The notes under the pieces: model-generated
What the model was told of the DNA's origin: nothing
Database searches by the model: none
The model's input: the letters and a program-made list of their open reading frames with translations, nothing else
Program-made: the position numbers and the translations under genes
NCBI GenBank assembly: GCA_905250025.1
Contig: CAJNOJ010000043.1
Coordinates: 434,001-498,000, forward strand
Length of the DNA: 64,000 nucleotides
Origin: Adineta ricciae
Lineage: Eukaryota; Rotifera; Eurotatoria; Adinetida; Adinetidae
Direction of reading: 5' to 3'
Shown: positions 1-64,000 of the stretch, in pieces
Position numbering within the stretch: the first letter of the stretch is position 1
Layout of the letters: each line of letters starts with the position of its first letter

Positions 1-244
1 CATCAAACCGAATGAAAAACAACAAAAGAGTAGCAATATCAATCGAACAGGGAAAAGATTGCACAAAAGAAAAAACAAATAAAAATAAATTATTCAAATC
101 CAGTAAGCATTTCGTGCATGTGTTTCATTCACCTGATCTGCTTGACTATCGAACGTATAACATGAATTGATTTGCGTTTCTTTTTTCATCTTCTTGATAG
201 ATGTATGTCCACAGAAATTCTAGATGTGTTTTAAGACAAATCTT

Positions 245-1159
245 TCATTTAGGTTGCCGGAGAAGAAGTAATGTCATAGCTGCGTCGACAACTTCAACGC
301 TTGGAGTTGAAGATGTTCCTGATGAATCAGTTTTCAAACGTTGTTTTTTTCTTTTCGTTTCTTCGGATGAGCTGAGACGATGAATAGTTTTATCTCGTTT
401 GCGATCTTTCAACGGACAACTGTTTTCATCGTTGGTATGACGAATGATATCTCGTTGCCTTTCTGAACATAGACGTTCGAATATATCTATTGTACATTGA
501 TTTGTTAACGATAGTTGCCGAGTATTCATAGTTAACAGTGTGTCAAGTAGAAGTGAACGTTTTGAACGATCAGTTGTCCATAGCGGATAACGTAATTTAC
601 TTCCATTCGACGGATTTTTGATAATTTTCACAAAAAATGAAATTTGCTTGGTCATGTGATAACGAATTTTACTTTTCAGACGAGCACTGTACAGTAGATG
701 TTCATCAGTTGAAGAAACAGTGTTGTTGTTGTTGTTATTATTATTGTTAGTTGCAGTTGATTGTTCGATATTTCGTTCAATCCAATCACAAATTTCATTT
801 AATGTTAACGTTCGGCTTTTCGAACTTTCGATTGCAAATAAAATCCAAAAACATAGAGCAGAATGTGGCGGAGAGACAATATCAGTCGTTGTAACACGTT
901 CACTCGAAGAATTTAATGATGACGAATCAATATCGTGTTCACTATCTGATGAATCAATGAGACTCGACGGTGGTGGTGATGAGCGATGGCGATGTTTATC
1001 ATTGATGTAACTTGGTAAACTTTTACTCAGTGTTGGTACAGCGTGTGTTGAACGTGATGATGAGGACGACGAAGATGAACGATCAAATATGTCCGATTGG
1101 GTTAACCAGGATAATTCTGTCAGATCATGATCAGATTGTTGTTTTAAATTAGTTAACAT
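245..1159 (-). CDS. Divergent forkhead-domain-like protein
   Basis: Single-exon reading frame of 304 aa. Residues about 97-195 read like a forkhead winged helix: PPHSALCFWILFAIES (helix 1), LTLNEICDWIERNI (helix 2), LKSKIRYHMTKQISFFVKI (recognition helix) and a wing ending in PLWTTD. Forkhead proteins are nuclear transcription factors. The usual RHNLS core is RYHMT here, and a poly-Asn run (about 138-146, coded by TTG/TTA repeats on the plus strand) is inserted between helices 2 and 3. The N-terminus is Ser-rich and the C-terminus has a Lys/Arg-rich stretch (KRKKQRLK) that could be a nuclear signal. A polypyrimidine-AG acceptor lies four bases upstream of the ATG, so a 5' leader exon or a trans-spliced leader is likely. 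Forkhead identity is by motif only; the FoxN-like flavour is a guess. Confidence 0.6.
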   Translation of the reverse strand: MLTNLKQQSDHDLTELSWLTQSDIFDRSSSSSSSSRSTHAVPTLSKSLPSYINDKHRHRSSPPPSSLIDSSDSEHDIDSSSLNSSSERVTTTDIVSPPHSALCFWILFAIESSKSRTLTLNEICDWIERNIEQSTATNNNNNNNNNTVSSTDEHLLYSARLKSKIRYHMTKQISFFVKIIKNPSNGSKLRYPLWTTDRSKRSLLLDTLLTMNTRQLSLTNQCTIDIFERLCSERQRDIIRHTNDENSCPLKDRKRDKTIHRLSSSEETKRKKQRLKTDSSGTSSTPSVEVVDAAMTLLLLRQPK

Positions 1160-3236
1160 TTGTCTAGAAGTAAATTATGTGTCATGTTCTTATTTCATTG
1201 AATAAAGATTTTTAAATACACAATCGGACGTATAAAAGCATGACATGTACTTAGAGAATTTCAAATTAATAGCTTTTCAATGGTATTGTGTTCGGCTCTA
1301 TTTCATTCTCTCAGAGTATTCCTTAGTAAATACAAAGTTAAAGATCTAACAGTGATTGAAATGGGATAAATATCGGCAGTGATCTGACTTGTTCGTCTAT
1401 CTAAAGTCAAATACACGTATGAGAAAAAAAGGCAGAAGAAGAAGAAAAAAGAAGAGAAGTGTGTAGAATTAAAAAGTAGAGGGTGAGCGAGTGAGAATAA
1501 TAGTAGCGTTGAGAAGGAGAGACAAAGACGAAAAAGAGAAGAGGAGAAAAGAGGTGAGAGAGAAGTGGATTGAATCTTTCTCGCAGAGTTAGTCGTGAAG
1601 GTATGTGTGTGCGTGTGCCCGTCGAGAAGAAAGAAGAGATAGACGACGACGATGACGACAAAGTAATACTGGTTAAGAATGAGAGAACTATTGCTTAGCA
1701 ACACGACATCTGTCTTCTACGACTTTGCTCAACATATGAAGAGACATTTACTTCTATATACTCATGTCTCATGACATCAGGATGAACGATGGAAAAATAG
1801 AGAGAGAGAGAGAAAGAAGACGGCAGACATATTGGCTTCCTTTTCTGGTGTATGCTGAAATATCTGCGTAAATCTGAGACAATATGACGAAGAGAAAAAA
1901 GATCTCTTTTATTAAAAGAGAATAACTACGTATACAAGTGATAGATGAGTAATACAAGAAAAACTAACAAGTAACTCGTAATGGAAATGATAATTTAACA
2001 AGAAAATTTTCATATTCAAGTGATGCTTTAATGAAAAAAAACCTCAACTGACAGTTTTCTTTCCATCAAACTCGGAAAAAATCTAGCAAACGTTCATTTC
2101 CTTTTTATTTCAAATCGATGAGTTTGTCATTAAATAAAAAGATAAATACTTACACGCGCGCACACACACGTCAGTTTTTATCAGAAGAAAATCATTTCAA
2201 AGGTGTCCCGTACTCTAACATTGTTTTCTCATCGATGCTACCAAGCGTCGCACTTACCTTGTTTCCTTTGAAACATGAAGATTAATACGATTGGCTCGCA
2301 AATAAGCGCAGAAAGACATTAGATTTTTCATTGAAAATTTCACTTGGCTATTAATTATTAACGATTACTTAGAAAGAGCTCGCTCCTGTCTTCTTGAAAT
2401 CTATGACGTCGTTTGTTTTTCTTGTCTTTAATAAGATGAGAAGTACAATCCACGTGAGATTACTCTAAAAACTTTCCTTTCCAGGATAGGGGATGCATAC
2501 TTCATCATTGCGTGTGAATAAATAGACAAAGTCGACTGAAAATATGTTGCATGTGAATTCTAAAATCGAAACTTTTTGTCTGGTATTCGTTACAGAGTGC
2601 GAAATACACTTCAAAATCGTATTATTTGGATGTATTAAGATAAGATTTGACTGCTGACGAATCAATCATTCCGATTAGATGGTATACAATTCTCTTCAAG
2701 CAGACATAAACTTCTTATCTTGTAGTGCTATCACTTGCTATGTTCACTTGTCACAAGAAAGGAAATATAGAAGCTGAATACCTGTTTGGACAGCTGGAAA
2801 GCGCGCAAGAGAATGAACTTCTATCTATCGATGGCAAAGCACAAAAATATTTGTATTAGATATCTATGGATTTAGATTATTAATATTTTCTTTGCCGTTG
2901 CTATGAAAGAGAATCTAATGAAATGATAAATCTCTTGCTAGACGACACTTGAGTATGTCTGGTATGAAGGAATTCCTTCTTCTTCTTTTGTTAGAAATTG
3001 ATCAGTAACTATGTGCATTTTTGTCTGAATTAAAACTTCAGCAAAAGATTTAGATGAAAAGTCGATAGAATGACATCGACAAATATCGCCATCTATGACA
3101 CTACCAATTCGTCGGTTGTGAAATACATGCCAATAATGCTGGCCCAGCTGATTTGTTCTTACGAAAGTGGGAAAAAAATGTACTCTGCCGTTATTTCCAC
3201 AACTGTTTCGGAACGATCAGTCGAATCTTCAATATA
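1160..3236. other. Intergenic region, no gene seen
   Basis: About 2 kb between the forkhead-like gene and the coiled-coil gene. It contains a purine-rich block (1420-1580), an AG dinucleotide run near 1799-1816 and a short CG/CA run near 2155-2169. The reading frames here are low-complexity and show no family motif. It probably holds regulatory DNA of the two flanking, divergently transcribed genes. Confidence 0.5.
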
Positions 3237-5217
3237 ATGAACAGAGGACTTGATGAGGATGCGAAACTTTTACAAGATCCAAACAAATTGTATGAATACC
3301 TTTTGGACAATATTGAAAGCATGAATCAAAGTCTCACTGACGAAGCAGATTTTCTTAACAACGATATTAAAGCCTGCCATGAACATATTGAAAAGATCAA
3401 AGAAAAATTCTTGAAAAAGATTGAAGAATTTTCGAAGAAGCTTGAAGACATTCGTAGACAAAATGAAGAACTATCAGGAGCAAATAAGAATGTCTTGGAT
3501 GATGCTTCGAGCAAAATTAATGACCTGTTCGAATCAAAACGATATACGGAAGGTTAGTGTAGATAATTCGCTCGACATAGGCGATTTAACTTTTTTGCTT
3601 TTAAGCTCTAGAAGAATATCGAGCATATGAAAAACGTTTCAACGAACGCAAAAGGCTGAAAAATGAAATGCTCAACTTCCGTCGAAATGAACAGGATATC
3701 GATCGATTCTTTTCAACGAATTCTCCACTAAACGAGCCTCCGGTACCATCATCAAATCCAGTACCATCTGCCACTAACACGATGTCTGTGGAGATCGGCG
3801 ACGAAGATGATGAAGTATATACTCCTAAAAAACAAGAACTACGTCAAAAAAAGAAACTTGACAAAGATGATTTTGGGAATGAGGATGACGGCATGAAAAC
3901 AGAAGATGCACAGCAGCATTTGTAAGGTTTAACATTAGAATTTTACAACATTTATGTACTGCTTCCATCATTCAGATCAACTTTTGGAATTCGTTCAAAT
4001 CGCGTAGATAAACAGTCGCAACCAACACTCACGCTAGCTAATACTAACACGTAAACTTAGATGCAATAAAATCTCTTCTTTCGAAGTGTAGCGAATGAAA
4101 AATGAATTTCATCTTAGGACAGTCAATAATCCATCTTCGACATCAAATTCAACTGTTCAACCAAAATATACCATAAGCAACAGACTACGATCGACATCGA
4201 GTAATACGAAACAATCATCGTCCAATCGTAACCTTTCTGCTGCTTCTTCCACTAAAAATAGCCAACTAGAACCTCTAAACATGAAACCGGGTATATATCA
4301 AAGTTTAATTGATAGAGTTATACTCACAAATTTATTACATTTCGCTTTTGATACAAACCACGAATATACTCCATTGTTTCGTTCTAGTTGTTCTATACAA
4401 ACTTGAAGACAATCATTTTCTGTTGATGACTTGCACGACGAACGACATTATCCTATTCAAATGTCAATGTAATCGATTAGATCGATGGCGTTTAGACTTG
4501 ATCGAGCGACGTACTCATAGTACTGCTAAGCTCGAATGGCACGACGGCTTGATCATATCGATGGGTTCGATTGACAAACAACAAATCTATATGTTCACTG
4601 AAAAAGGATTTCATACTTTTTATATTCGATCTGATCGTCGCGGTATATCACGGATCTTGCCACGAGGTAATGATGATGGGTCAGATATTGGTAATTATTC
4701 GTACAATTCGCCTGAACGTGGAATTGGTCTTGTTCACGAGAAACATATGTATCATATATTTTTAAATCGTAAAAGTCGTTGGACACTATCACAATATTTA
4801 CTGGATACTGTTGCTCATTTGTATAATTATGACTTAGCAGCGTTATTTCCCGATGTTGAACGTTTTATTCAATTTTGCATTACTGATAGAACCATGAATT
4901 TTCTCGTGCAATTGTCGGATTCATCGTATGCTGTTGTATTTTGTTCAGCGAATGACTGTAGTGTCAATGACTCCCTACGACCAGTTATTTTACCCAATGC
5001 TCATCAACCATTAACAATCTGCCCTGTTTTTATTTCGGCCAGAAACGAATACCACTTTTACATCAACGATCCATCCACTGATACTCTACATGTAATCAAT
5101 ACCGATGGATATCTATATCACCATCAAGTAAAAGCTTATGCGATATGTTATGTGCGAGAAAGCCAAGAATTATTGATTGTAACAGAAAATTCCATATGTT
5201 CGATCGATATCAATTGA
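3237..5217 (+). CDS. Coiled-coil protein with a beta-rich C-terminal half, unknown function
   Basis: Five exons join in frame: 3237-3552, 3606-3921, 3976-4050, 4118-4290 and 4388-5217, giving 569 aa. All introns are GT-AG, four of them 53-97 bp. Residues about 10-145 are a strongly charged coiled coil (ends near KRFNERKRLKNEMLNFRRNE). Next comes a low-complexity, Ser/Asn-rich and acidic linker with a KKQELRQKKKLDK basic patch. The last 280 residues are beta-rich, with repeated strand-turn units (HFLLMTCTTNDIILFKC, YHFYINDPSTDTLHVI, ELLIVTENSICSID) that look like propeller blades. This resembles the layout of TRIM or NHL-type scaffolds without a RING. I do not recognise the family. Confidence 0.7.
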
Positions 5218-18527: not shown

Positions 18528-19468
18528 AGTGTTTTCGTTTAGAATGAAGAAAAAAAAACGAATCGCTGATATTCATGATGTCGGTAGTTACTAAGAACAG
18601 ATAACAACGATTGTGTCGCTTTTCAATGGGATTTTGAAACGAAAATTTAAAGATGATTAGATCAGTCTTGATTGACTTTTTTTCATAACGATCATATTGA
18701 TCATCTCTAATTGCTTTTATTCTAAATTTCCGAAACGACTTCGTAAACAATATTCTCCTATTGAATTATCCAACGATGAAAGAAAGAAGAAACTTTTTCT
18801 TTTTGTCGTTGGAGGCAAAAGATCTTCGTTCGACAATAGCTCTTCGCATCATACTCATCATTTATTTTAAGAAAGAGCATCACTTGATTTTTGTGCCTTG
18901 TCATCTGGAATTAAATTTAGTTTTCATGTCAGAAATAATTCAATGTTATATATTCATCTAGTATAGCATGTCAAAAAGAAAATTGCTCATTTGTATAGAA
19001 TGAGAAGAGAGAAGGCGGCTTGGTCTCTCGTGTATTTTCTCTTGTGAAAAAAACGGGAAAATATTGTCTCTTCTCGATAATAATCAATCAGTAAAGTGGA
19101 TGAACGTTTCTTTACGAAGAAGAGAAGAAAAAAAAAGAAAGAGGATGTTGCATGTTGAACGAAGCGACTTACAATGAGATTGATAATAGTAACAAGAAGA
19201 TTTTCTCTCATCGTGAGATATTATTGATGATGATGATGAGGAGGAGGAGGATGAAGGAGAATGCAAGACTACAAGTTAAATCCCCTTGTCGCATTGTGCG
19301 AATTCGAGAAGAAAAAAACTCTACTCAATCGATGAGCTCTAATCAGCCGGAATGAAAACATGCAACAATCATATTTCTGATTCTCGCCAATGTGTCAACG
19401 ACTAAACGGTTAGAACAGTGTCAACAGATTTTTATTGTTTTTTTTCTCTTCTTCTCCTTTAAACCAAT
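18528..19468. other. Intergenic region, no gene seen
   Basis: Shared 5' region of DHDH (minus) and the glutamate receptor gene (plus). It includes a purine-rich GAT/GAG triplet run near 19227-19257. The frames are low-complexity only. Confidence 0.5.
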
Positions 19469-25875: not shown

Positions 25876-26493
25876 TTACTTCTTCAAAAGTGCAATAGTA
25901 GCAGCAGCAAGACCTAAATGCAGAAAATGAGCGTCTCGTCAACCAAAAAAACTTGAGAATTCTACCTCCAACAAGAAGTGCTCCCGCACCCACAGCAATA
26001 CCAGCCCCGATATCTAAATATTATGGCATAGCTCAATATTTCAAACATTTTTATTTCCACTTACATCCTTCACGAGTCATTCGTCGTGTAATTTCATCTT
26101 TGAGGTTTTGGGCTTGATGATTTCCAGGCTGAACATGAAGAATAGCATCCAGAAATTTGATAGCCGTTTCGTATTCGTTCAGCCGTGCATTGCCTAAAAA
26201 CACGCATGGTCTGTTCGATATGGTTTCAAGATTCGTTTCTTACCAACTGCTAAATAATACAAGTAATCACGTTTGTCTTCATCTTTGTTCGTTGAATCGT
26301 AGAGTTCTTTCAAAAAATGTAGACCTTGTCGCACATCGTTCTTATTTTTACTTCGAACAAGACAATAGGCAAAGGAGAATTTATTTTGATCGGTCACTTG
26401 GTTCGCTTCCTTGGCTTTTTCGTATACTGTTCGATACCGTTGAATTTCATCGGGTAGAACAATTTCCTCTAATAGTTTTTGACTTTCTGCCAT
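25876..26493 (-). CDS. FIS1: Mitochondrial fission 1 protein
   Basis: Tail-anchored outer-membrane protein of mitochondria and peroxisomes that takes part in fission. The N-terminal arm and TPR-like helices read MAESQKLLEEIVLPDEIQRY, FSFAYCLVRSKNKNDVRQGL and YLYYLAVGNARLNEYETAIKF, with the FIS1 hallmark LRSKN-type turn. The second TPR is AILHVQPGNHQAQDLKDEI. The tail anchor YIGAGIAVGAGALLVGG...LAAATIALLKK is split by a short intron. The protein is about 150 aa, as in other animals. It lies 261 bp downstream of VTA1 on the same strand. Confidence 0.95.
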
Positions 26494-26754
26494 GCTTTAA
26501 TTGGTTCAAGTATATGAAAACGTTGAAATCAATCTAAATAAATATTGTTTATTAGCGAGTCAGTGACGAGTCAATAGATGAATCACAGGATGACTCATTC
26601 ATGACGTGTATACAATTTATTGATGCTTCATCACCGGAAAGAAAGAGAACGCAGTAGACGCAACAATATTCGAGCAAAAACGAGAAAAAGGAGTGACAAA
26701 AAATATCGATAAAAAGCATGAGTATTTTGTTCTTCTATAGGTTTTACAGATCAT

Positions 26755-27753
26755 TCAGTTATTATTGTATGGTCGGAGTAATTCTAAAACTTCTTCGCAG
26801 TTTTGAACTGCAGTGGAGATGTCTTCATGTTCGAGAGCAGATGCTGCATATCGACAAAGTTTCTGTGCTCGAGCAATGGTATCGAAAGGTGCATCTGAAA
26901 TAAAAGATCAGATTGCTCTGAACATTTCATCTGTGAACAACTCACTAGAACTGCTAGCGCCATGGCCATGAGATACTGGAGATGGTATTTCTGATGGTGG
27001 TGTAATCTTCATTGGAGATTGTTTTTCCGCTAAAAGAAAAGAGTAGAAATAACATGGGCGGACGCTGTGAATACGCACGAGGTTTTGCCGGTGGAACACC
27101 AGTACCCGCACCGGCTTTTAGGTCACGAAAAATGGCCACTGCTCGACTTTTAGCAATCTTTCCCAGCGTAAGAAACTTGAAAACGCCTAAATGAACATTT
27201 TGAATATTTCTTGCAAATCCATTCTTACATCTTCTTTCACTGGCCCAAACACAGAAAGTACATCTGTGAGTCCACCCACAGTGTAATGTTTTCGCATTAA
27301 TGACCGCAACTGTTCAGCATTTTTGTATTCATCATCTTCAGCTTCATTTGTTTCACCAACAAGAATAGTTACTAATTCTTCGATCGTTGTTTGACCAGTT
27401 GTCATTGACTTGATAATATCATCATTTGGATTATTTCTTTTTGTCTGAATTTCGCGAGACATTGCATTAGAATAGACTATGAAATATTTCGTAACTTACT
27501 GCTTCAAGATAATCAAGTACATTGGAAACAAATTGTTTATCTTTTTGATGTTTTAATGCTTCATTTGCAATATACATTAAACAATAGTATGTTATCGAGA
27601 TGGTTTCGACATTCTTCTCATATTCTTTAGCAATACCAAAATGTTGCATTAATTTTACACGTAATTCCTGTGGAATTTGTGCTGCTAATGTCTAAGAAAA
27701 GAATTGTTTTATTTTTATAGCAGAATGTGTTGACTTACATCTAATTGAGACAT
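26755..27753 (-). CDS. VTA1: Vacuolar protein sorting-associated protein VTA1 (LIP5)
   Basis: Cofactor of the VPS4 ATPase that disassembles ESCRT-III on endosomes. The N-terminal MIT-like region includes YYCLMYIANEALKHQKDKQF, then RSLMRKHYTVGGLTDVLSVFG, which matches the family block F.TASLLIDVITVFG. The next exon gives IFRDLKAGAGTGVPPAKP, like HNCLKNGETPQAGP in human. The C-terminal VPS4-binding helices are the clearest: FDTIARAQKLCRYAASALEH then EDISTAVQNCEEVLELL. The first exon codes only MSQLD. A strong polypyrimidine acceptor lies about 24 bases before the ATG, which suggests leader splicing. The gap to the PSMA1 stop upstream is 131 bp. Confidence 0.9.
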
Positions 27754-27884
27754 AGTTATTAATAAACGGTTCTTAATCTAAAATGAAATGAAATGAAAGA
27801 AAAGAAAAAACCGTTGATCCTGTTTAACAGACAATGATTTTATGTTTTATGATAAAAAAATTCGAATAGAATATTAGAATTAGT

Positions 27885-29155
27885 CTACGATTCCATGCGT
27901 TCTGTCGCGATAGCAACTCGTGGATCAGTATTGCCACCTTGTGGTGGTGGTGGTGGAAGATCATCGCCACCAGTAATCTAAACGTGACAAAAAACTAATA
28001 TTCAATAGACTGAATGTTCTAAACATACCAAAGTATCATCTTGAGCTTGTGGTGCACGTTCATCACCTTCAATTGCGGTTAAATATGCTGTAACGCGTAC
28101 ATCATCTAAGATAGCGAATGGTGTATCTTTTCCTACGACTGCAACTGCACAATTCTAAATTCGAATAGACTTTCAATGATAATTAGGAGTCTAGTAATGA
28201 TTTTACCTTAATTGTTAATTCCACTTCATTCGGTAAGGTATCACGTAATGCCCTCATACAGTGTTTAATTAACTCGTCTTGATTTGAATCAGAGAATTTG
28301 TCAAGATTCTTTTCCAAGTATGTCCGAGCTGATTGAGAGCGAGCACCAATGGCCATGCATTTGCATGAGTAATAGTTCGCCGATGGGCATAGTTGATATA
28401 AATGTGTACCTTTTTCCTAAAAGACATGATTATTCAAATGCTAGACGTCAAACATTCTACAAACATCGAAGCCAGCCATGAGGAAACCAACACCAAATGG
28501 ACGACGTCCATAGCGTTGAGTTGGAACTTGACATTCTACAATGATCACAGTGAATACAACAAGGAATTATACAATCGCTTGCTCATTACTATTGCTAACA
28601 TGATCCATTAATCTTGTCACCGGCATAGGTTTGTCGAAACCATATTGATGATTAATACATTCAGTTCGCATGAAACGGCTGCAAATACATAAAAACAGAT
28701 CGTTTTCTTTGGAATAGTCATTATAGCAATGATGTTACCAAAGAATGCGAGCATCTGATGCTAATCCAGCGATCGAAACACCAATGTGATCATCAATAAA
28801 CATGATCTTTTTTTGATGAGCCGATAATTCTGACGGAGCACGCTAAAATATCACGTTTGAGAACGAATTCTATTCTTCGGATTATAATCATACTTTCAAG
28901 GCACAAAGAACAACATGTGTTTTCGATTTAACTGCTACAGTTGCTGCACCTTGCTTCACAGCTTCCATGGCGTATTCGATTTGGTAAAGTCTTCCCTAAT
29001 TATATGCATATTAAGACCGAAAAGGAAAACGAAATGGGTTTTAAAATGCGTACTTGAGGACTCCAAATGCTAACATCATGATCGTATTGATTACGGAACT
29101 AGGGGAGAAAAGAATAAGAATAAAAAATAAAAGATTTTCGGAGGAGAAATACCAT
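27885..29155 (-). CDS. PSMA1: Proteasome 20S subunit alpha 6
   Basis: Structural alpha-ring subunit of the 20S proteasome. After the start, [20 protein letters not shown] and [20 protein letters not shown] form the alpha-type N-terminus, followed by [69 protein letters not shown] and [15 protein letters not shown]. Each matches human PSMA1. The C-terminal tail is Pro-rich ([11 protein letters not shown]). The first coding exon holds only the ATG (29153-29155), followed directly by a GTATTT donor. An intron (AAT A|GTAATG) lies just before the KCQVPTQ block. At least seven exons; total about 265 aa. Confidence 0.95.
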
Positions 29156-31368: not shown

Positions 31369-31418
31369 NNNNNNNNNNNNNNNNNNNNNNNNNNNNNNNN
31401 NNNNNNNNNNNNNNNNNN
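31369..31418. other. Assembly gap (50 N)
   Basis: A run of exactly 50 N, which usually marks a gap of unknown or nominal size. It sits immediately upstream of a zinc-finger-coding stretch, so coding sequence is probably missing. Confidence 0.98.
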
Positions 31419-32185: not shown

Positions 32186-33279
32186 CTAACTGGCAACAGT
32201 TAAAACAGCAGATGCATAACTAACACTTGAATCGTTCGACTTTTTCACCCGACTCGATTGAGCATATTTGACGAATTGCATGTGAAATTTCGGTACTTGA
32301 TTGGCGGAAACGACCCTTTTCGCTTGCTCCATTGTCTAAAATCGAAAGACGATTTCGTCTTCAGATTTATCATATAACAAATTGAGACTTACCGCAAGTA
32401 AAAGACTAATTGGATAACGACCACAAATCGTATTGTCAGTAGCCCGAAGATATTTATGGAAATCTGCCAAGTTCATCTTTTCAATTAGTTCCATACCTTG
32501 ATGATCTAATTTTTCGATGTGCTGCCAGATTTCACCGTCTGCAGGATTATGAGGTTGATAGGAAAATCGCCGACCTAAACACCATATACATTGACATGTA
32601 CATATTTTCTGTATGAGGTTTATTCCTACATACCCCAATGGCAAAAGTCAGATGAGATAACGAATAGATTTTTCGGATCACAGAGGTATGGTGCTAACAG
32701 TTGTCCATACTTTTCCAGTTTCGACGAATCGAGAGAACCAACAAGAATGGGAATTAATTGAAAATCCTTGCGTTTTCTGAAAGTAATTGAATTGATTTCA
32801 TGCTCGCAAGTAAACGTCTCTTCATTCGAATCCTACTTTTCGAACACTTTAGCAATATATGGTAAATGCATTTCTAGCGAATGTTCATCGGAATCTTGTT
32901 GTTGATTCATAACTGAGAAAAGACCTGCTCTATGCAAATCATTGGTTATTTTCGTATCGATTTGAATATTGTACAATGGCGTTTCATATTGTGCGTGATT
33001 GCTCAACGCACAATGATCTAAACTGTAATGATGTGATGGACCAAGGAGAAACACGCGATCGACATCAGTTGGATCGATGTTTTTATATGCAAATGCAGCT
33101 GTTGGTCCACTATAAGTATAGCCAGCATGAGGAGCAATGATTGCTCGCGCTTTTAATTTCGTATTGGAACTATTTGCTGCTTCAGCCAGCCATGTTGATA
33201 GTTGTTGATCGAGATGTCTGCCATCAGCTTCGTACCAACTTCCAGCATGTGAGGCTTCGCGAACGGAACTATGTGACAT
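32186..33279 (-). CDS. MEMO1: MEMO1 family protein
   Basis: MEMO1 is related to class III nonheme iron dioxygenases, binds metal (iron or copper has been reported) and takes part in ErbB2-driven cell motility. The N-terminus SVREASHAGSWYEADGRHLD fits the family start. Further blocks are RAIIAPHAGYTYSGPTAAFA (His ligand), VFLLGPSHHYSLDHCALS (His), DEHSLEMHLPYIAKVF, LFVISSDFCHWGRRF (Asp/Cys/His) and TICGRYPISLLLA. The C-terminus SSVSYASAVLTVAS is close to human SSVSYAAGALTVH. The protein is about 295 aa. A CTTTTTCAG acceptor ends exactly at the ATG, and TRAPPC1 stops only 68 bases upstream. Confidence 0.94.
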
Positions 33280-33306
33280 CTGAAAAAGATGAATATTGCT
33301 TTTCGA

Positions 33307-33312
33307 TTTATT
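33307..33312 (-). promoter_or_regulatory. Candidate polyadenylation signal for TRAPPC1
   Basis: AATAAA on the minus strand, 35 bases past the TRAPPC1 stop and inside the 68-base spacer before MEMO1. Its place between two close same-strand genes fits 3'-end processing coupled to leader splicing. Confidence 0.5.
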
Positions 33313-33347
33313 GATCAATGTGAAATAAGAAACAGAAGAAAGAACAA

Positions 33348-33941
33348 TCACGCTTTGTTTGTTTGGGAAAAAATCGATAAATTACTAATGAATTCGTCTA
33401 GTTTTTCAATGAAGATTTCTTGATCGGAATCGATAACGTCGACGGCTGAAGCACGAGGATTCTTTACAATATAATTGACAAATATCTAAATTGAAAGCAG
33501 TGAATGGATTGCATTCGATTCTTTCGTCTACTTACTGTACTATACAATTGGTGTAGAATATCGCGAATGTTGCCAACATTGTTATCTGTGTTTAACACGA
33601 ATTTATGACCAGTTGCTGTTTCGTAGTAATGTAGTTTATAGCAGTTGGTTTTGAAACTCAGAAAACCATCTTTTCTACGAAAGTACAAAGCATAAATCTC
33701 AGCAGAAGCCGAAAGAAACTTACAAATCTACTGGTGATAGACGTTGTACAAATGATTTGACTGAAAAGAGAAAACCATTCATCAGTTTAAACTCCTAAAA
33801 TCAAAACAACGCATAAAACAATGCTATTTTGAAATCACTCACTTCTTCTTTGCTCATGTTGGTCTGTTTTCGTCGTAGCCATTCTCGATAGAATAAACAT
33901 TGTCCATTTCGATTAAAAATATAAAGATTATACACAACCAT
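33348..33941 (-). CDS. TRAPPC1: Trafficking protein particle complex subunit 1 (Bet5)
   Basis: Core longin-fold subunit of the TRAPP tethering complex that activates Rab1 at the Golgi. Starts MVVYNLYIFNRNGQCLFYRE (human MTVHNLYLFDRNG). Exons then give EFKLMNGFLFSVKSFVQRL, DLKDGFLSFKTNCYKLHYYE, TATGHKFVLNTDNNVGNIRD, ILHQLYST and IFVNYIVKNPRAS. The model is about 148 aa against 145 in human. A TTTTTTAG acceptor directly abuts the ATG. METAP2 ends 135 bases upstream on the same strand. Confidence 0.95.
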
Positions 33942-34076
33942 CTAAAAAACGTCTGGTTTATGTTTTCCAAGGAACAACGAAACGAAGAGCAAAAATTTTT
34001 CCTTCTTTCTTTTTTGTAATCGCACGGTTAAATAAACGTTCAAAGACAAAAAAAAACAGAACAAAGATGAACGTGA

Positions 34077-36168
<2,092 letters not shown>

Positions 36169-43212: not shown

Positions 43213-44168
43213 ATGAATTGCAAATACTGTTGTGTAACTTGTGGTGCCGAAGCTGATGAATTATCGCATCATTATAAAGAAGGTGTCATCAAAATCATTC
43301 ATTGCGTAAAACGACGAATATTTCGAATGAAAAGCTTGATTTCGTTGTCAATTTTAGAAAGAATGCCAAAATCCAGTTGATCCCTACATTGAATTAGATG
43401 ATCTCCTTGTCTTCATTGACTTTGTTTTACTAAAATTACGAGCACATCGACATGTTCTATTCAATATTGACAAAATCAAATATAACGTATGAACTTTTTC
43501 GAAAGTCGACGCTTTTATTCGAGACTTTTTAGCACATTATCAAACTTTCATGTGCATTGATTCTTGCTAATGCGTACATTAAATGGTTTCACCTGAAAAA
43601 CGATCAATATCAATCGATTATCAATCAAGACCATCATATTTTCTATGCTCTAGAATACGGATTCTATTCGAATTTATTCGAATCATTTCTCGGTAAATCA
43701 TCCTATTGAATCCTTGTTTTCACAATCCTCCCCGTCTAGAATACACCATTCGATTTGGATTGATATTTCTCATCGCATTTGCGCAGTGGAGACAGAATTG
43801 GACAAGAGACAGGTAAGATGATCGTTGTTCCTTTTTCGGTTTTGAGAAATGTATTTTTCAGATCCATGCTTCTCTTTCGTGCATTGATTCTTTCAAGCAT
43901 TGGTCAGCTATTCATCTTACCCTTGTTAATATGGAGTCCCGATCACCGTGATTACTACGGTTTACTAATGAGTTTTATATTTACTATTCTTTGTCATACT
44001 CAGGCGCTGAATGGTAAATTGATTCGATCATTATTATTGTACGCAAATCTATTTTTATTTTTAGCTTCACGATTATTCTCATCATTAATGTCTTTTCTTT
44101 CATCAACAATAGCAATACTTCTTTCCAAATATTTGCTTTCGATAGTTTCACAGAATTCTTTTCTATAA
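43213..44168 (+). CDS. ARV1: ARV1 lipid homeostasis protein
   Basis: ER membrane protein involved in sterol and sphingolipid traffic. The N-terminal zinc-binding ARV1 homology domain is MNCKYCCVTCGAEADELSHH then YKEGVIKIIHC and, after an intron, KECQNPVDPYIELDDLLVFI; this has the two paired-Cys knuckles. RAHRHVLFNIDKIKYN follows, like YRHILFNTQI in human. Membrane segments come next: LSCALILANAYIKWFHL, IRFGLIFLIAFAQW, ILSSIGQLFILPLLIW, LLMSFIFTILCHTQAL and a last hydrophobic pair. About 270 aa. The first true ATG is at 43213, just before the Cys knuckles; an upstream in-frame TTG is not a plausible start. Confidence 0.92.
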
Positions 44169-44190
44169 AAAAAACATTTATCTAAGATAT

Positions 44191-46066
<1,876 letters not shown>

Positions 46067-48257: not shown

Positions 48258-49199
48258 ATGATCAGAACATCGATGGTGATCATGTTCGATAGTTTCATAT
48301 CTCTATTGATTCTCAATTCTATGTTCTTTTCAGCAACATGCTTGATCATTCACACGCAACGCACGAAGGACAACGAAGAAATATGTGTACAAAATCATTT
48401 TGAAAGTCAAACAAATGATCATCTACTCGTATGTCATATAAACAATAACCGCGATCGTTCGATTCTCATTTGGTTTAAAATTGATCCAACTCTCTTCAAT
48501 TTCTTTCACTTTTATCGTTTTATACTACGAACAGTCGATGAAATTAGTTTATCCACTAATCACATCCATTTATTAACAAACTTTACTGAATTAGTCGACC
48601 AGAACAATAGTTTACGTATACTGAATTTAAATTCTGGCCAGTATGAAATCTGCCTGGATTTCCAATCGAATAATACGACATATATATATTCACCGCGGAA
48701 TGCTTGCATAGCGATTCGTATTGGCGAACTTCTCCATCGATCGTTCAAACAAAGTTCAATTCAATTGTTCATTGCGTTAATCACAGGAATTATACTCTTT
48801 CTTCTTCTTGGCCTTGTTGTACAACATGTCAAAAGTAAACAAATTGAAAGAACTGATTCCGAGCAAATAGTGACTGATAATAAAAAAAAACAGTCGCCTC
48901 AGGAACGTTCGCGTAGCTCAAGTATTCTTTCATCAGTCATTTCGACGAAGCAACGCTTATTTCGTCGGTATATTGATCAACCTGATCCATCACAAATCAG
49001 ACAATGGGCACGTAATCGGGCATTTCGTCATCGAATATCAACACAAGATAATGATCAAACACGATGGAATCAAGCTAGATCGAATGCAATGTCGCAAAAT
49101 ACTTCCTCGTTATCAGCGAATGATATTTACATCATTCCAATGAATGATTGTTCCCGAGATATTTCTTTCTATTTGACTCCAACTAAAGAATTTTATTGA
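48258..49199 (+). CDS. Type I single-pass membrane protein, unknown family
   Basis: Intronless frame of 313 aa. An N-terminal hydrophobic stretch (FISLLILNSMFFSATCLII) fits a signal peptide. The ectodomain of about 150 aa has three potential N-glycosylation sites and four Cys and reads beta-rich (SILIWFKIDPTLF, LRILNLNSGQYEICLDF), loosely like a fibronectin III fold. A transmembrane helix follows (SIQLFIALITGIILFLLLGL). The cytoplasmic tail (about 115 aa) is basic and Ser/Gln-rich. The family is not recognised; the receptor-like role is inference from topology only. Confidence 0.7.
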   Translation: MIRTSMVIMFDSFISLLILNSMFFSATCLIIHTQRTKDNEEICVQNHFESQTNDHLLVCHINNNRDRSILIWFKIDPTLFNFFHFYRFILRTVDEISLSTNHIHLLTNFTELVDQNNSLRILNLNSGQYEICLDFQSNNTTYIYSPRNACIAIRIGELLHRSFKQSSIQLFIALITGIILFLLLGLVVQHVKSKQIERTDSEQIVTDNKKKQSPQERSRSSSILSSVISTKQRLFRRYIDQPDPSQIRQWARNRAFRHRISTQDNDQTRWNQARSNAMSQNTSSLSANDIYIIPMNDCSRDISFYLTPTKEFY

Positions 49200-49271
49200 T
49201 TGAGATTTTCGAAAAAAAAGAAGATACTTTTTATTCGGTTTGGGATATATTGTTGTTATTGTTTTTATTTC

Positions 49272-51393
49272 TTAAATTCCACCATATGCTTGACGATATT
49301 CGTGTAATAATAAAGGATTAATACTACTTTGCATGTATCGGAGTGGTGATATGAATTCTTGGTTCTGCATCGTTGGTTCCGGGGCGTTTGCCTGAGTATG
49401 TTGATGACTGGTGGAAGATTTGATTGACGAAGCAGCTTTCTCGGATGAACCATATATACTGGAAACGTATTCATCGACTTGTTCATTATTTAAAGATCTT
49501 CGTGCAGGCAAACTTTGCTGTGATGGTAATTTCATCTGTGAACGTTCGACATAATTGATCGATGGGCCTGACTTGATCGTTGAATGATGGTGCCGTCGTC
49601 GTCGACGATGACCATACTCATGATACATCTGTTTACTGGAGCTATCTGATTCTTGTCGATTTTGTTTCTTCGAGGCTGATGATGATTCTAAATGACGGAT
49701 CATAGCTTGAGCGTCGTGTCCGTTCATTTTCAATCTTCTTCCCCGATAATCTTCAAAATAACCCTCGACAATGTCTAGCATATCAGATGTTGTTAGCTGA
49801 TTGGTATCAGAGTCTTCTTGATCATGGCGAAAACTGGCTCGCCGCTGTTTCGATTTCCTTTCGTTAAATAACTTTTCAATCGATTGAAGATCGACAACTG
49901 GAACAGGTTTCGATCGTCGCCGTTGTGAATGTGCCCGATGAACTGGCTGAGATATATAAGATGTTGTGTCAATACTCTTCTGTTGTGCATTTGGTTGAAT
50001 AACATCCATGAAAAGAATACGATTTCCATCTGTAGTTATCCTTTCACCATGTTCATTGATTTGATACGTTTCAGAATATGTAGCATAACTAGGAGTGCAT
50101 TCTTGAAGTGGCGGTGGTTGGAGAATTGGCTGTGGAAAAGTGTAGGTGGGCTGTTTTTGCTGAAAACCTACAAATGAATTGGGCACAACTTTTTCGATGA
50201 TGATTGGTGTTTGTTGAACAATAACTGGTTTGATATCGATGTTATTCGGTAGTGTTGGGTCGAAAGAGCTTGATTGTGACCGAACTAATTCAGGATTCAA
50301 TTGATCTGCATGGTCATATTTCGATTTCAATCGGCGACGATGATGATGTCGATTACGTATATCCGATGAACTTGATGAACTTGAACAACTACATGAACTT
50401 GAGCGATCTTCGTCATCCATGTGACGCAGATACTTATGAATTTCTTGTGTGAGATCGTCATGATACAGACCTTGATTTTGACCGAATGGAGAAGGCGGAG
50501 GCCGTGGTCGAGTTCCTGCTACATCGTCATCGTCCCATAGTTGCCATTGTTCGAGAAGATTTCCATCCGTACGGTAGAAGAAACCGTTCAACGATGGATC
50601 TAAGAGAGTATTTCGCTCATTCAACTGGTTTATTTGAGATTCGTCTTCGTTAGCAGGCGAAAGATAAATAACTCCAGTTGTTTCACTTATTTTTCGTCCA
50701 TAACGATCTAACTATTGAAAATGAAATTCAACGATAGATGTACTCGAATCATCGAAAACAAGTCATACTTGATAGAAAATAGGCGATCTGAGAAGCTTCG
50801 ATAAGGGTGGAAGGTTAGCATAAACGTCCGATATTGCACGGACAAGTGCTAAGGCAGCATCAGCGTTTTTGGTGATAAAACAATGGCATTCATCACCTGT
50901 GAAAATTTGTGTACGATGAACAACAAGACAAAATAGTGGTGGATGTTTGCTTGGAATATTCATTGTTGAATCTAACGTTACAAAACGCCAATCGATCGAA
51001 GAGGTTTGATCGTCTTCAATGACAGAAAAGCGAAGACTTGCACAATAGATTAATGACGAGATTGGAAAGAAAATCACTGTATAAGGCTGGCGAGCAAAGG
51101 TCAATTGAATGCCATTCTCATAAACCGAAAGAATAGAATCAATACCTGAAGGAAAAACCACATGGTCATACATCTCATTTCAATCGAATAGGATTACCGC
51201 GAGCTGTATTTGTACCATCAACTGGATATCGATGTGCTAACGGTTCTTGAATGGAATCAATGCCACGACGACCAGGGCTCGGTACAGCTGTGCCAATGTA
51301 TAAAACACCGCATTGAACAACCGGTTCGATGACAGTTGTTTCAGGTAGGCTGGGCAATTGATCAGTCGCCGTGTTTACTGGTTCTTGTGACAT
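49272..51393 (-). CDS. PTB/PID-domain protein with long disordered tail
   Basis: Three exons, about 670 aa. The N-terminal 190 residues look like a phosphotyrosine-binding fold: VVQCGVLYIGTAVPSPGRRG (strand 1), SIQEPLAHRYP, GIDSILSVYENGIQLTF, YTVIFFPISSLIYCASLRFS and FTGDECHCFITKNADAALAL then VRAISDVYANL (C-terminal helix). This resembles a conserved but little-studied animal PID family in which YLGSAVP...GIDS recurs. The rest is disordered: an RPRPPPSPF proline motif, poly-Ser/Cys near CSCSSSSSSS, a basic Arg/His block (HRRRRRHHHS) and many Gln and Ser. Probably a cytoplasmic adaptor; partners unknown. Confidence 0.68.
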
Positions 51394-62042: not shown

Positions 62043-62801
62043 ATGTTCACATTAATTATTTGCGCTGTGCTCTTGATGGTTCATCAAGTGCAATGTTCGA
62101 TGAAAGCTGTAGCGGTTCTCTATGGAGATAACTCACCAACATCCTATGGTAGTTTAACATTTTCTCAAGCGGATGCTGGTGCACCCGTTCGAATCACTGG
62201 CACACTTTCAGGACTCAATGTCAGCAGCGCACACGTAAGTGTGAAACGTGAAAGAATCAAGGAAAAATGTTCTATTGTAGGGTTTTCATGTTCATGTTTA
62301 TCCAGTCTCAGATGGCACACCGAATTGTACAGCTGCTGGTGGACACTTTAATCCATACAGTTCGTTACGGAACTAATGTCAGTTGTTTACACATGACTGA
62401 TTGATATTTTCAGATGTTACTCATGGTTCAGAAACAGGTAATTTACGTACTCGACATGTTGGTGATCTCGGAAATATAACAACGAATGCCAATGGTGAAG
62501 TGACAATTGATAGGACAGATATAATTATTCAACTATACAATACTACACAGTCAATCATGAATCGAACTATAGTTGTCCATCGTATGCGTGATGACGGTGG
62601 CCAAAGTGGAGCCCCAGATAGTACGACAACAGGGTATGACAAATCATTAGCATGAAAAAATCAGTTTCAGTATATTCTTTTCATAGAAATGCTGGTGCTC
62701 GTGTTCTCTGTGGTTTGATTAAATCAGTTGCTGTTCATATGCAACCAACAATGTTCATTCTGTTCACTATTTTGACCATTGTTTTCATGCAATTATTCTA
62801 A
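62043..62801 (+). CDS. Extracellular Cu/Zn superoxide dismutase, copy 1
   Basis: Turns superoxide into oxygen and hydrogen peroxide outside the cell. The signal peptide is MFTLIICAVLLMVHQVQC. The SOD domain is MKAVAVLYGD..., GFHVHVYP (two Cu His), NCTAAGGHFNPY (bridging His and the disulfide Cys), THGSETG and RHVGDLGN (Zn ligands), TIVVHRMRDDGG (fourth Cu His) and NAGARVLCG (active-site Arg and partner Cys). All metal ligands are present. Several N-glycosylation sites occur. The C-terminus carries a hydrophobic tail (MFILFTILTIVFMQLF), which suggests a GPI or membrane anchor. Three introns, including one right after SSAH. Confidence 0.93.
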
Positions 62802-63328
62802 ACCAAGACATGATCAATTTTTTCTTTGCTTAACGGGCAAATTAATCGCTATAATTCTACTATTTCGTTTTTGATAATGTCTCATGCTTTCGATGTAACC
62901 TATATCATTCTATCTTGTTGAGTATAAATATCCTTGCGAAAGTTTTTTTATTACGTAAATAACAATAACCATACTTGTAGAACACCGAAGGTTAAGCCCG
63001 TTTGAAAAAAGACAACATACAGTGAAAATTTATATTCAACTGTAAGATAAGACATGCAATAAATTTCAGAAATAATTGCATACAAAGAACAGATGCATGA
63101 AGTCATGCAAAAAGTAAATATAAATACATTACCAGTAACTTCCAATTGGCATCGAGTACTCTATTAAAAAGTAAAATTCAGCTGTAAAGTGGTGGATCCT
63201 AAGAATTAAAGATAAAGTCAGCACCCCCTGCAAATTTAAATAGAGCACCTTGCTGATAAGCTTTTTCCTTCTATAAATAGAGCAATTCTAGTCACAGTTA
63301 ACACAGTAAATCTTTCTGTGGTTTAAAA
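62802..63328. other. Intergenic spacer between the SOD copies
   Basis: Holds the 3' end of SOD copy 1 and the promoter of copy 2, including the TATA box at 63272. Nothing else seen. Confidence 0.5.
63272..63280 (+). promoter_or_regulatory. TATA box of SOD copy 2
   Basis: TATAAATAG, 48 bases before the ATG at 63329. A strong match to the TATA consensus, with spacing that implies a short leader. Confidence 0.65.
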
Positions 63329-64000
63329 ATGAAACTAATATTCATTACGCTTTGTCTCTTATCACTTGTCCATACTAAACACTGTTCATTAGTTGCAACT
63401 GCAAACCTTCACATAGATTCTGCTCAAGTTGGAATCGGTACCCTTCTGTTTCATCAACGTGATCCAGCATCTCCAGTTCGTATTGTCGGTATTATAGATG
63501 GTCTGAAGAGTAACACAGTTCACGTAAGCTCGTCACAACAACATTACACCTCGTCTCATAGCAAATTTAGGGTTTTCATGTTCACAGAGATCCATTGGTT
63601 ACCGGTCAACTCAATTGTACTGCTGCTGGTCCTCACTTCAACCCATACAGTAAAGGCGAAACATGTCCATCATCTAAATCTCTTTTTTTCAATCAATTTA
63701 GATACTTTACACGGTCCACGTGAAGCTGATATAAAAAATCGACACGTTGGTGATCTCGGCAACCTTACAGCAAACGAAAATGGTATAATCGTTGTGGAAA
63801 TATCCGATGCCATCATTGATCTATACAACGCGACACGATCAATCGCGAATCGTACGATTGTATTACATGCAATACGAGATGATGGCGGTAAAGGTGGTTT
63901 TCCCGATAGTAATACAACAGGGTATGTCTTACCTTCATCAAATTTTCTTCCTTATGCTTTTCTTCTCTTAGAAATGCTGGTGCCCGTATCGCATGCGGTG
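63329..64000 (+). CDS. Extracellular Cu/Zn superoxide dismutase, copy 2 (cut by window end)
   Basis: Tandem neighbour of copy 1, same orientation. Signal peptide MKLIFITLCLLSLVHTKHC. The SOD blocks are GFHVHRDPL, NCTAAGPHFNPY, TLHGPREAD, NRHVGDLGNLTANENG, IVLHAIRDDGGKGG and NAGARIACG, the last at the window edge. All Cu and Zn ligands up to there are present. Intron positions match copy 1 (after the residue before GFHVH, after NPY, and before NAGAR), so the two copies come from a tandem duplication. The two sequences have since diverged a lot in the first 60 residues. The C-terminus, and thus any anchor, is outside the window. Confidence 0.93.
   Translation, partial: MKLIFITLCLLSLVHTKHCSLVATANLHIDSAQVGIGTLLFHQRDPASPVRIVGIIDGLKSNTVHVSSSQQHYTSSHSKFRVFMFTEIHWLPVNSIVLLLVLTSTHTVKAKHVHHLNLFFSINLDTLHGPREADIKNRHVGDLGNLTANENGIIVVEISDAIIDLYNATRSIANRTIVLHAIRDDGGKGGFPDSNTTGYVLPSSNFLPYAFLLLEMLVPVSHAV

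Follow-up and report, generated by a model that had tools for sequence, protein, structure and literature searches.

The minus strand of the 64-kb window (the whole stretch of Adineta ricciae DNA analysed, 64,000 nucleotides) carries three intact animal housekeeping genes in tandem between positions 36168 and 32186. METAP2, encoding methionine aminopeptidase 2, spans 34077-36168 (11 exons, 497 aa) and would be the first gene of a putative unit, followed by TRAPPC1 at 33348-33941 (4 exons, 148 aa) and MEMO1 at 32186-33279 (4 exons, 305 aa). The METAP2-TRAPPC1 spacer (33942-34076) measures 135 bases and the TRAPPC1-MEMO1 spacer (33280-33347) only 68. All three identities come from phmmer searches against proteins of known structure. 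The alignment of spliced METAP2 with METAP2 chain 9fpz_A begins at residue 22 of the predicted protein and extends to the C-terminal residue of both (E 2.5e-198). TRAPPC1 and TRAPPC1 chain 2j3t_C align from the first residue of each (E 1.6e-51), and there is an additional match to Pfam Sybindin (E 2.3e-37). For MEMO1, the alignment with MEMO1 chain 7kq8_A starts at residue 7 of the predicted protein and residue 5 of the chain (E 4.3e-97). Because these alignments cover the ends concerned, the stop codon of METAP2 and the start codons of TRAPPC1 and MEMO1 are credible. Coordinates and identities thus agree with a sequence-only reading of this DNA, which had described three minus-strand genes lying 135 and 68 bases apart. 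A fused METAP2-TRAPPC1-MEMO1 protein was considered and rejected, since the conserved C-terminus of METAP2 would be lost. A short relic of METAP2's own last exon (36478-36422, minus strand; 19 residues, 68% identical, E 6e-4) lies upstream of the gene, where its promoter is likely to be.

The window has a GC content of 35.9%, a median intron of 53 bases (79 introns, all <130 bases, long introns left out) and a coding fraction of 49%. These values are consistent with those given for A. ricciae in PMC5916493 (35.6% GC, median intron of 55, exon span of 47.8%), which also reports GC contents of 30.8% for A. vaga and 31.9-32.6% for two Rotaria. Gene-finder models obtained under strict settings, with METAP2, TRAPPC1, MEMO1, PSMA1, VTA1 and sec19b set by hand, make up a set of 29 genes. 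A run of 50 N at 31369-31418 is probably an assembly gap. Two tandem genes at 62100-64000 (plus strand), the second of which extends past the window end, presumably encode superoxide dismutase-like proteins. A glutamate receptor is also present, the best 60 of 402 PDB matches being glutamate receptors. Searches of the window with Rfam at gathering thresholds and with ARAGORN returned no matches.

The start codons of TRAPPC1 and MEMO1 each abut a 3′ splice site. The stretch ...TTTTTTAG terminates at 33942 with the TRAPPC1 ATG immediately after it, and ...CTTTTTCAG terminates at 33280 with the MEMO1 ATG immediately after. Donor and acceptor weight matrices were built from 79 cis introns of <130 bases, drawn from 18 curated genes in the window, with true sites scored leave-one-out. 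By this measure, the acceptor whose AG occupies 33942-33943 (minus strand) scores 5.80, at the 72nd percentile of true acceptors, and the one with AG at 33280-33281 (minus strand) scores 5.93, at the 75th; both would be used in trans. The earlier statement that 3′ splice sites end exactly at these two ATGs is therefore upheld, both sites being good by weight matrix. No acceptor up to 80 nt from the METAP2 start codon scores above 1.25. The METAP2 mRNA may therefore begin at its own transcription start. Elsewhere, 377 bases before the start of a DHDH-like gene, a good acceptor scoring 6.06 directly precedes an ATG at 18904 (minus strand).

T-rich DNA ending in AG could by chance precede two starts of close-packed but otherwise ordinary genes. 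The genome is AT-rich, AG lies directly 5′ of 192 of the 2924 ATGs on both strands of the window, and an acceptor-like site occurs within 45 nt at 5 of 22 other gene starts. Adjoining acceptors of good quality are much rarer: a score of at least 4.5 is found at 6/2924 ATGs on both strands, namely the TRAPPC1 and MEMO1 starts, a VTA1 exon start (26894) and three others. When the TRAPPC1 and MEMO1 starts are excluded, an adjoining acceptor scoring at least 5.0 is found at only 3/2922 ATGs, one of them the VTA1 exon start. At this rate, with thresholds picked after the two sites had been seen, two or more matches among 29 gene starts have a Poisson P of about 4e-4, and matches at both of the two named starts a P of about 1e-6. 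Acceptors are present in a second cluster, PSMA1-VTA1-FIS1, too. The acceptor matches at the TRAPPC1 and MEMO1 starts are real and a chance origin for them is unlikely; chance as an account of the whole arrangement is highly improbable.

These acceptors could instead serve in cis, so that the start codons of TRAPPC1 and MEMO1 are spliced to a non-coding 5′ exon or, after read-through, to an exon of the gene upstream. In parasitic flatworms, acceptors are often common to cis- and trans-splicing (PMC12582326), and the gene finder itself chained METAP2, TRAPPC1 and MEMO1 through the acceptors described here. A usable cis donor was sought in both spacers with the donor matrix, and neither holds one comparable to true donors. 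Among sites 40 nt or more upstream of the ATG, the best donor of the 135-base spacer reaches 2.0, at the 6th percentile of true donors. The 68-base spacer has two GTs in that range, with scores of -1.9 and -2.0, lower than any of the 79 true donors. The gene-finder chain relied on weak donors (GATGTGAAA at 2.7 and GACGTTATC at 1.4), and its METAP2-to-TRAPPC1 join deletes the conserved METAP2 C-terminus. Because the spacer donors are poor and chaining both needs weak donors and removes this C-terminus, a 5′ exon inside either spacer appears unlikely; an exon of an upstream gene might still supply the donor. A cis-spliced 5′ exon had been named beforehand as evidence that would count against an operon, and within the spacers it finds no comparable donor. 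Taken over both of its forms, cis use of the acceptors is decidedly improbable.

A similar arrangement recurs on the minus strand at 29155-25876, where a PSMA1-like proteasome alpha subunit gene (27885-29155, 9 exons, 280 aa; Pfam Proteasome, E 4.8e-53; hand-corrected model) is followed by VTA1 (26755-27753, 6 exons, 247 aa; Pfam Vta1, E 8.4e-17, and Vta1_C, E 6.3e-13) and FIS1 (25876-26493, 4 exons, 154 aa; Pfam Fis1_TPR_C, E 2.2e-21). We name the genes PSMA1, VTA1 and FIS1 after these Pfam families. The PSMA1-VTA1 spacer measures 131 bases and the VTA1-FIS1 spacer 261. An acceptor with its AG at 27778-27779 (minus strand) precedes the VTA1 ATG by 24 nt. None of the 79 true acceptors exceeds its score of 8.6, and no other gene start among the 29 has a stronger one within 45 nt. 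The AG of the FIS1 acceptor lies at 26534-26535 (minus strand), 40 nt before the ATG, and this site scores 4.8 (47th percentile). No good acceptor lies near the PSMA1 start, the best within 80 nt of its ATG scoring 2.3. The PSMA1-VTA1 spacer holds no donor above 1.1, and the best donor in the VTA1-FIS1 spacer scores 2.6, at the 10th percentile of true donors. A CATAAA lies 61 nt upstream of the VTA1 acceptor, and an AATAAA ends 14 nt upstream of that of FIS1. Judged from these features, PSMA1-VTA1-FIS1 probably works like a METAP2-TRAPPC1-MEMO1 operon. In the hand model, exon 1 of PSMA1 (29155-29099, minus strand) encodes the ATG alone, a 54-base intron following directly after the start codon.

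Poly(A)-type hexamers precede both acceptors of the METAP2-TRAPPC1-MEMO1 trio. The AATAAA reported earlier within the 68-base spacer is indeed present, at 33307-33312 (minus strand), and ends 27 nt before the end of the MEMO1 acceptor. The METAP2-TRAPPC1 spacer lacks both AATAAA and ATTAAA and holds only the variant CATAAA at 33957-33962 (minus strand), which ends 15 nt before the end of the TRAPPC1 acceptor and may act as a poly(A) signal. When AATAAA, ATTAAA and CATAAA are counted, the last having been added after the sites were seen, a hexamer ends 8-35 nt before the acceptor in 3 of only four cases (TRAPPC1, MEMO1, VTA1 and FIS1). The same 8-35 nt placement is found at 7 of 89 cis acceptors, at 13 of 89 intergenic acceptor-like sites scoring at least 4.5, and at 7.9% of 51,378 intergenic positions. 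Among the five other start-side acceptors, those of sec19b, DEGS_a, g0 and opsin have none of the three hexamers within 70 nt (4/5). The fifth, at g5, has an AATAAA 23 nt upstream, and g5 does not lie in a short tandem gap. Because 5/22 other starts have an acceptor of at least 4.5 and g5 also has an AATAAA, neither acceptors nor hexamers are specific to operon positions.

Gene spacing bears on how TRAPPC1 and MEMO1 might be transcribed. Among the 29 models, whose gaps depend on the models themselves and several of whose starts were placed solely by the gene finder, the 7 divergent gaps span 673-2281 bases, the 6 convergent gaps 22-924 and the 15 tandem gaps 68-3424, seven of the latter being at most 328 bases. 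Since divergent gaps are at least 673 bases long, promoter-bearing gaps appear to be long, and short gaps fall where no promoter is needed or within these tandem pairs. The sequence-only reading had seen little room for a promoter before MEMO1, and the comparison of 68 bases already holding AATAAA and an acceptor with divergent gaps of at least 673 agrees with it. Compactness explains part of this closeness, because convergent pairs lie as near as 22 bases. The coding ends of ARV1 and RUVBL1 converge with 22 bases between them (44168-44191), as do those of g21 and g22 with 72 (49199-49272), and the 3′ UTRs of both pairs probably overlap.

Where a tandem gap is at most 328 bases, 5 of 7 downstream genes (TRAPPC1, MEMO1, VTA1, FIS1 and, as a doubtful case, sec19b) have an acceptor of at least 4.5 within 45 nt of the ATG; the remaining two, AASDHPPT and COMT, have no AG within that distance. 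Such an acceptor occurs at 7.1% of 7187 intergenic control positions and downstream of 1/28 stop codons. The 5/7 proportion departs from the intergenic rate with a binomial P of 3e-5 and from the other 22 starts (5/22) with a Fisher P of 0.03. Over all upstream intervals, an acceptor of at least 4.5 is found in 10/29 on the sense strand vs 5/29 on the antisense strand, a modest window-wide excess at this threshold; the counts become 8 vs 2 at 5.0 and 7 vs 2 at 5.6.

Close packing without co-transcription is the remaining account, in which both TRAPPC1 and MEMO1 undergo SL trans-splicing and each gene has a small promoter of its own in or upstream of its spacer. Leader addition to single genes is common among SL-using animals (PMC12582326), some genes of tandem pairs in this window (COMT) carry TATA-like motifs, and the nearness of convergent genes attests to a compact genome. 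Against this stand the occupied 68-base spacer and the length of all seven divergent gaps. No TATAWAW lies within 130 nt before the TRAPPC1 or MEMO1 ATG, which is weak evidence given that only 6/29 starts have one; TATA boxes were dropped as a discriminator for this reason. A scan for bacterial promoters and terminators, a method ill-suited to animals, gave no clear excess over shuffles. Separate promoters for the two genes are improbable.

Two further tandem groups were examined as operons and rejected. An FMO-like gene, sec19b and COMT (O-methyltransferase-like) lie in tandem at 55810-52482 (minus strand) with gaps of 328 and 250 bases. Besides the lack of an AG within 45 nt of the COMT start, sec19b, which encodes a small protein with no Pfam match, has good cis donors upstream that could be used, along with a TATAAA that lies 44 nt 5′ of its start codon. 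The TATA-like motifs at this group suggest separate promoters over an operon. DHDH-AASDHPPT was set aside as AASDHPPT has no AG near its start.

Together, these observations make it probable that METAP2-TRAPPC1-MEMO1 is a polycistronic unit, that is, an SL-resolved operon. A single pre-mRNA would initiate upstream of METAP2 and span all three genes. Internal 3′ ends would form near the CATAAA and AATAAA hexamers, and a spliced leader RNA supplied from elsewhere would be attached at the two AGs that terminate at 33942 and 33280. TRAPPC1 and MEMO1 mRNAs would then have the leader as their entire 5′ UTR. With 15 and 27 nt between hexamer and acceptor ends, poly(A) cleavage would fall almost at the trans-splice site. 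The operon put forward in the sequence-only reading is supported in part: acceptors at both downstream starts, spacers that are short and free of comparable donors, hexamers and the second cluster favor it, while acceptors also appear in the antisense control and at non-operon starts, and the METAP2-TRAPPC1 hexamer is only CATAAA. Both spacers of the trio fall below the cut-offs of ~250-300 bases taken from PMC12460157 and PMC12582326 for SL operons.

The leader that this mechanism calls for is documented in bdelloids. SL trans-splicing in this group was described in 2005 (cited in PMC1925144), A. ricciae is listed among its users in PMC2481426, and the leader is reported as a 23-nt exon present on >50% of transcripts (PMC1925144), with its sequence given in PMC3795323. 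These three sources agree with the earlier remark that SL trans-splicing is reported for bdelloids. The published SL exon is absent from the 64-kb window at up to 3 mismatches and has no exact match in viral_contigs or genome_contigs. When viral_contigs was scanned for MEMO1 and TRAPPC1, peptide patterns appeared at 4 and 8 stretches, none of them a relative by tblastn.

Gene chains resolved by a shared leader are known in worms and sea squirts. In Ciona and in C. elegans SL1-type operons, the upstream poly(A) site adjoins the trans-splice acceptor and no intercistronic RNA is left (PMC12582326). The trio resembles the operons of Ciona intestinalis and the SL1-type operons of C. elegans in the short distances, 15 and 27 nt, from its hexamers to the acceptor ends; it differs in belonging to another phylum and in that its poly(A) sites and leader joining are predicted from sequence. 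C. elegans SL2-type operons also consist of short-spaced same-strand genes whose downstream members receive a leader, but their leader is the specialised SL2 and an intervening sequence separates the poly(A) site from the SL acceptor (PMC12582326), unlike the layout predicted for the trio. The table in PMC2481426 lists one SL form for bdelloids.

Closer in phylogenetic terms are the chaetognaths, which like rotifers belong to Gnathifera (PMC12460157) and whose operons, in Spadella (RPS14-PCNA) and Paraspadella gotoi, likewise consist of tightly packed same-strand genes, there resolved by SL trans-splicing. In Spadella RPS14-PCNA, 3 bases separate the poly(A) site from the acceptor (PMC2481426), and chaetognath operons, called at gaps <250 bp, are enriched in protein metabolism (PMC12460157). 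Chaetognath operons are backed by EST or RNA-seq data, whereas METAP2-TRAPPC1-MEMO1 is predicted from the DNA sequence. Operons in Rotifera are entered as 'ND' in a 2008 table (PMC2481426) and are said in a 2021 paper to 'have not been reported' (PMC7986045). A 2025 paper lists rotifers loosely among lineages with both trans-splicing and operonic transcription, its relevant passages giving no rotifer operon data (PMC12460157). No report of a rotifer operon was found among the matches listed in our literature search, and an earlier one may exist. The mechanism itself is already known; Rotifera as a taxon for operons seems new.

A wider reading can be offered tentatively. With two candidate operons in a 64-kb window (METAP2-TRAPPC1-MEMO1 and PSMA1-VTA1-FIS1), bdelloids might use operons widely, with poly(A) and trans-splice sites nearly coincident, and the gnathiferan ancestor may already have had SL-resolved operons, which monogononts, where no leader was found, would then have lost. 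If both SL-using gnathiferan groups, bdelloids and chaetognaths, were operon users, such an ancestry would become possible. For bdelloids, the passages on A. ricciae and Philodina sp. cover leader addition by SL trans-splicing, not operons, and in these sources the bdelloid SL has so far no known role in resolving them. A clear operon would extend to the bdelloid SL the function known from nematodes, tunicates, flatworms and chaetognaths, and would help to settle whether operons in Gnathifera had a single or a repeated origin.
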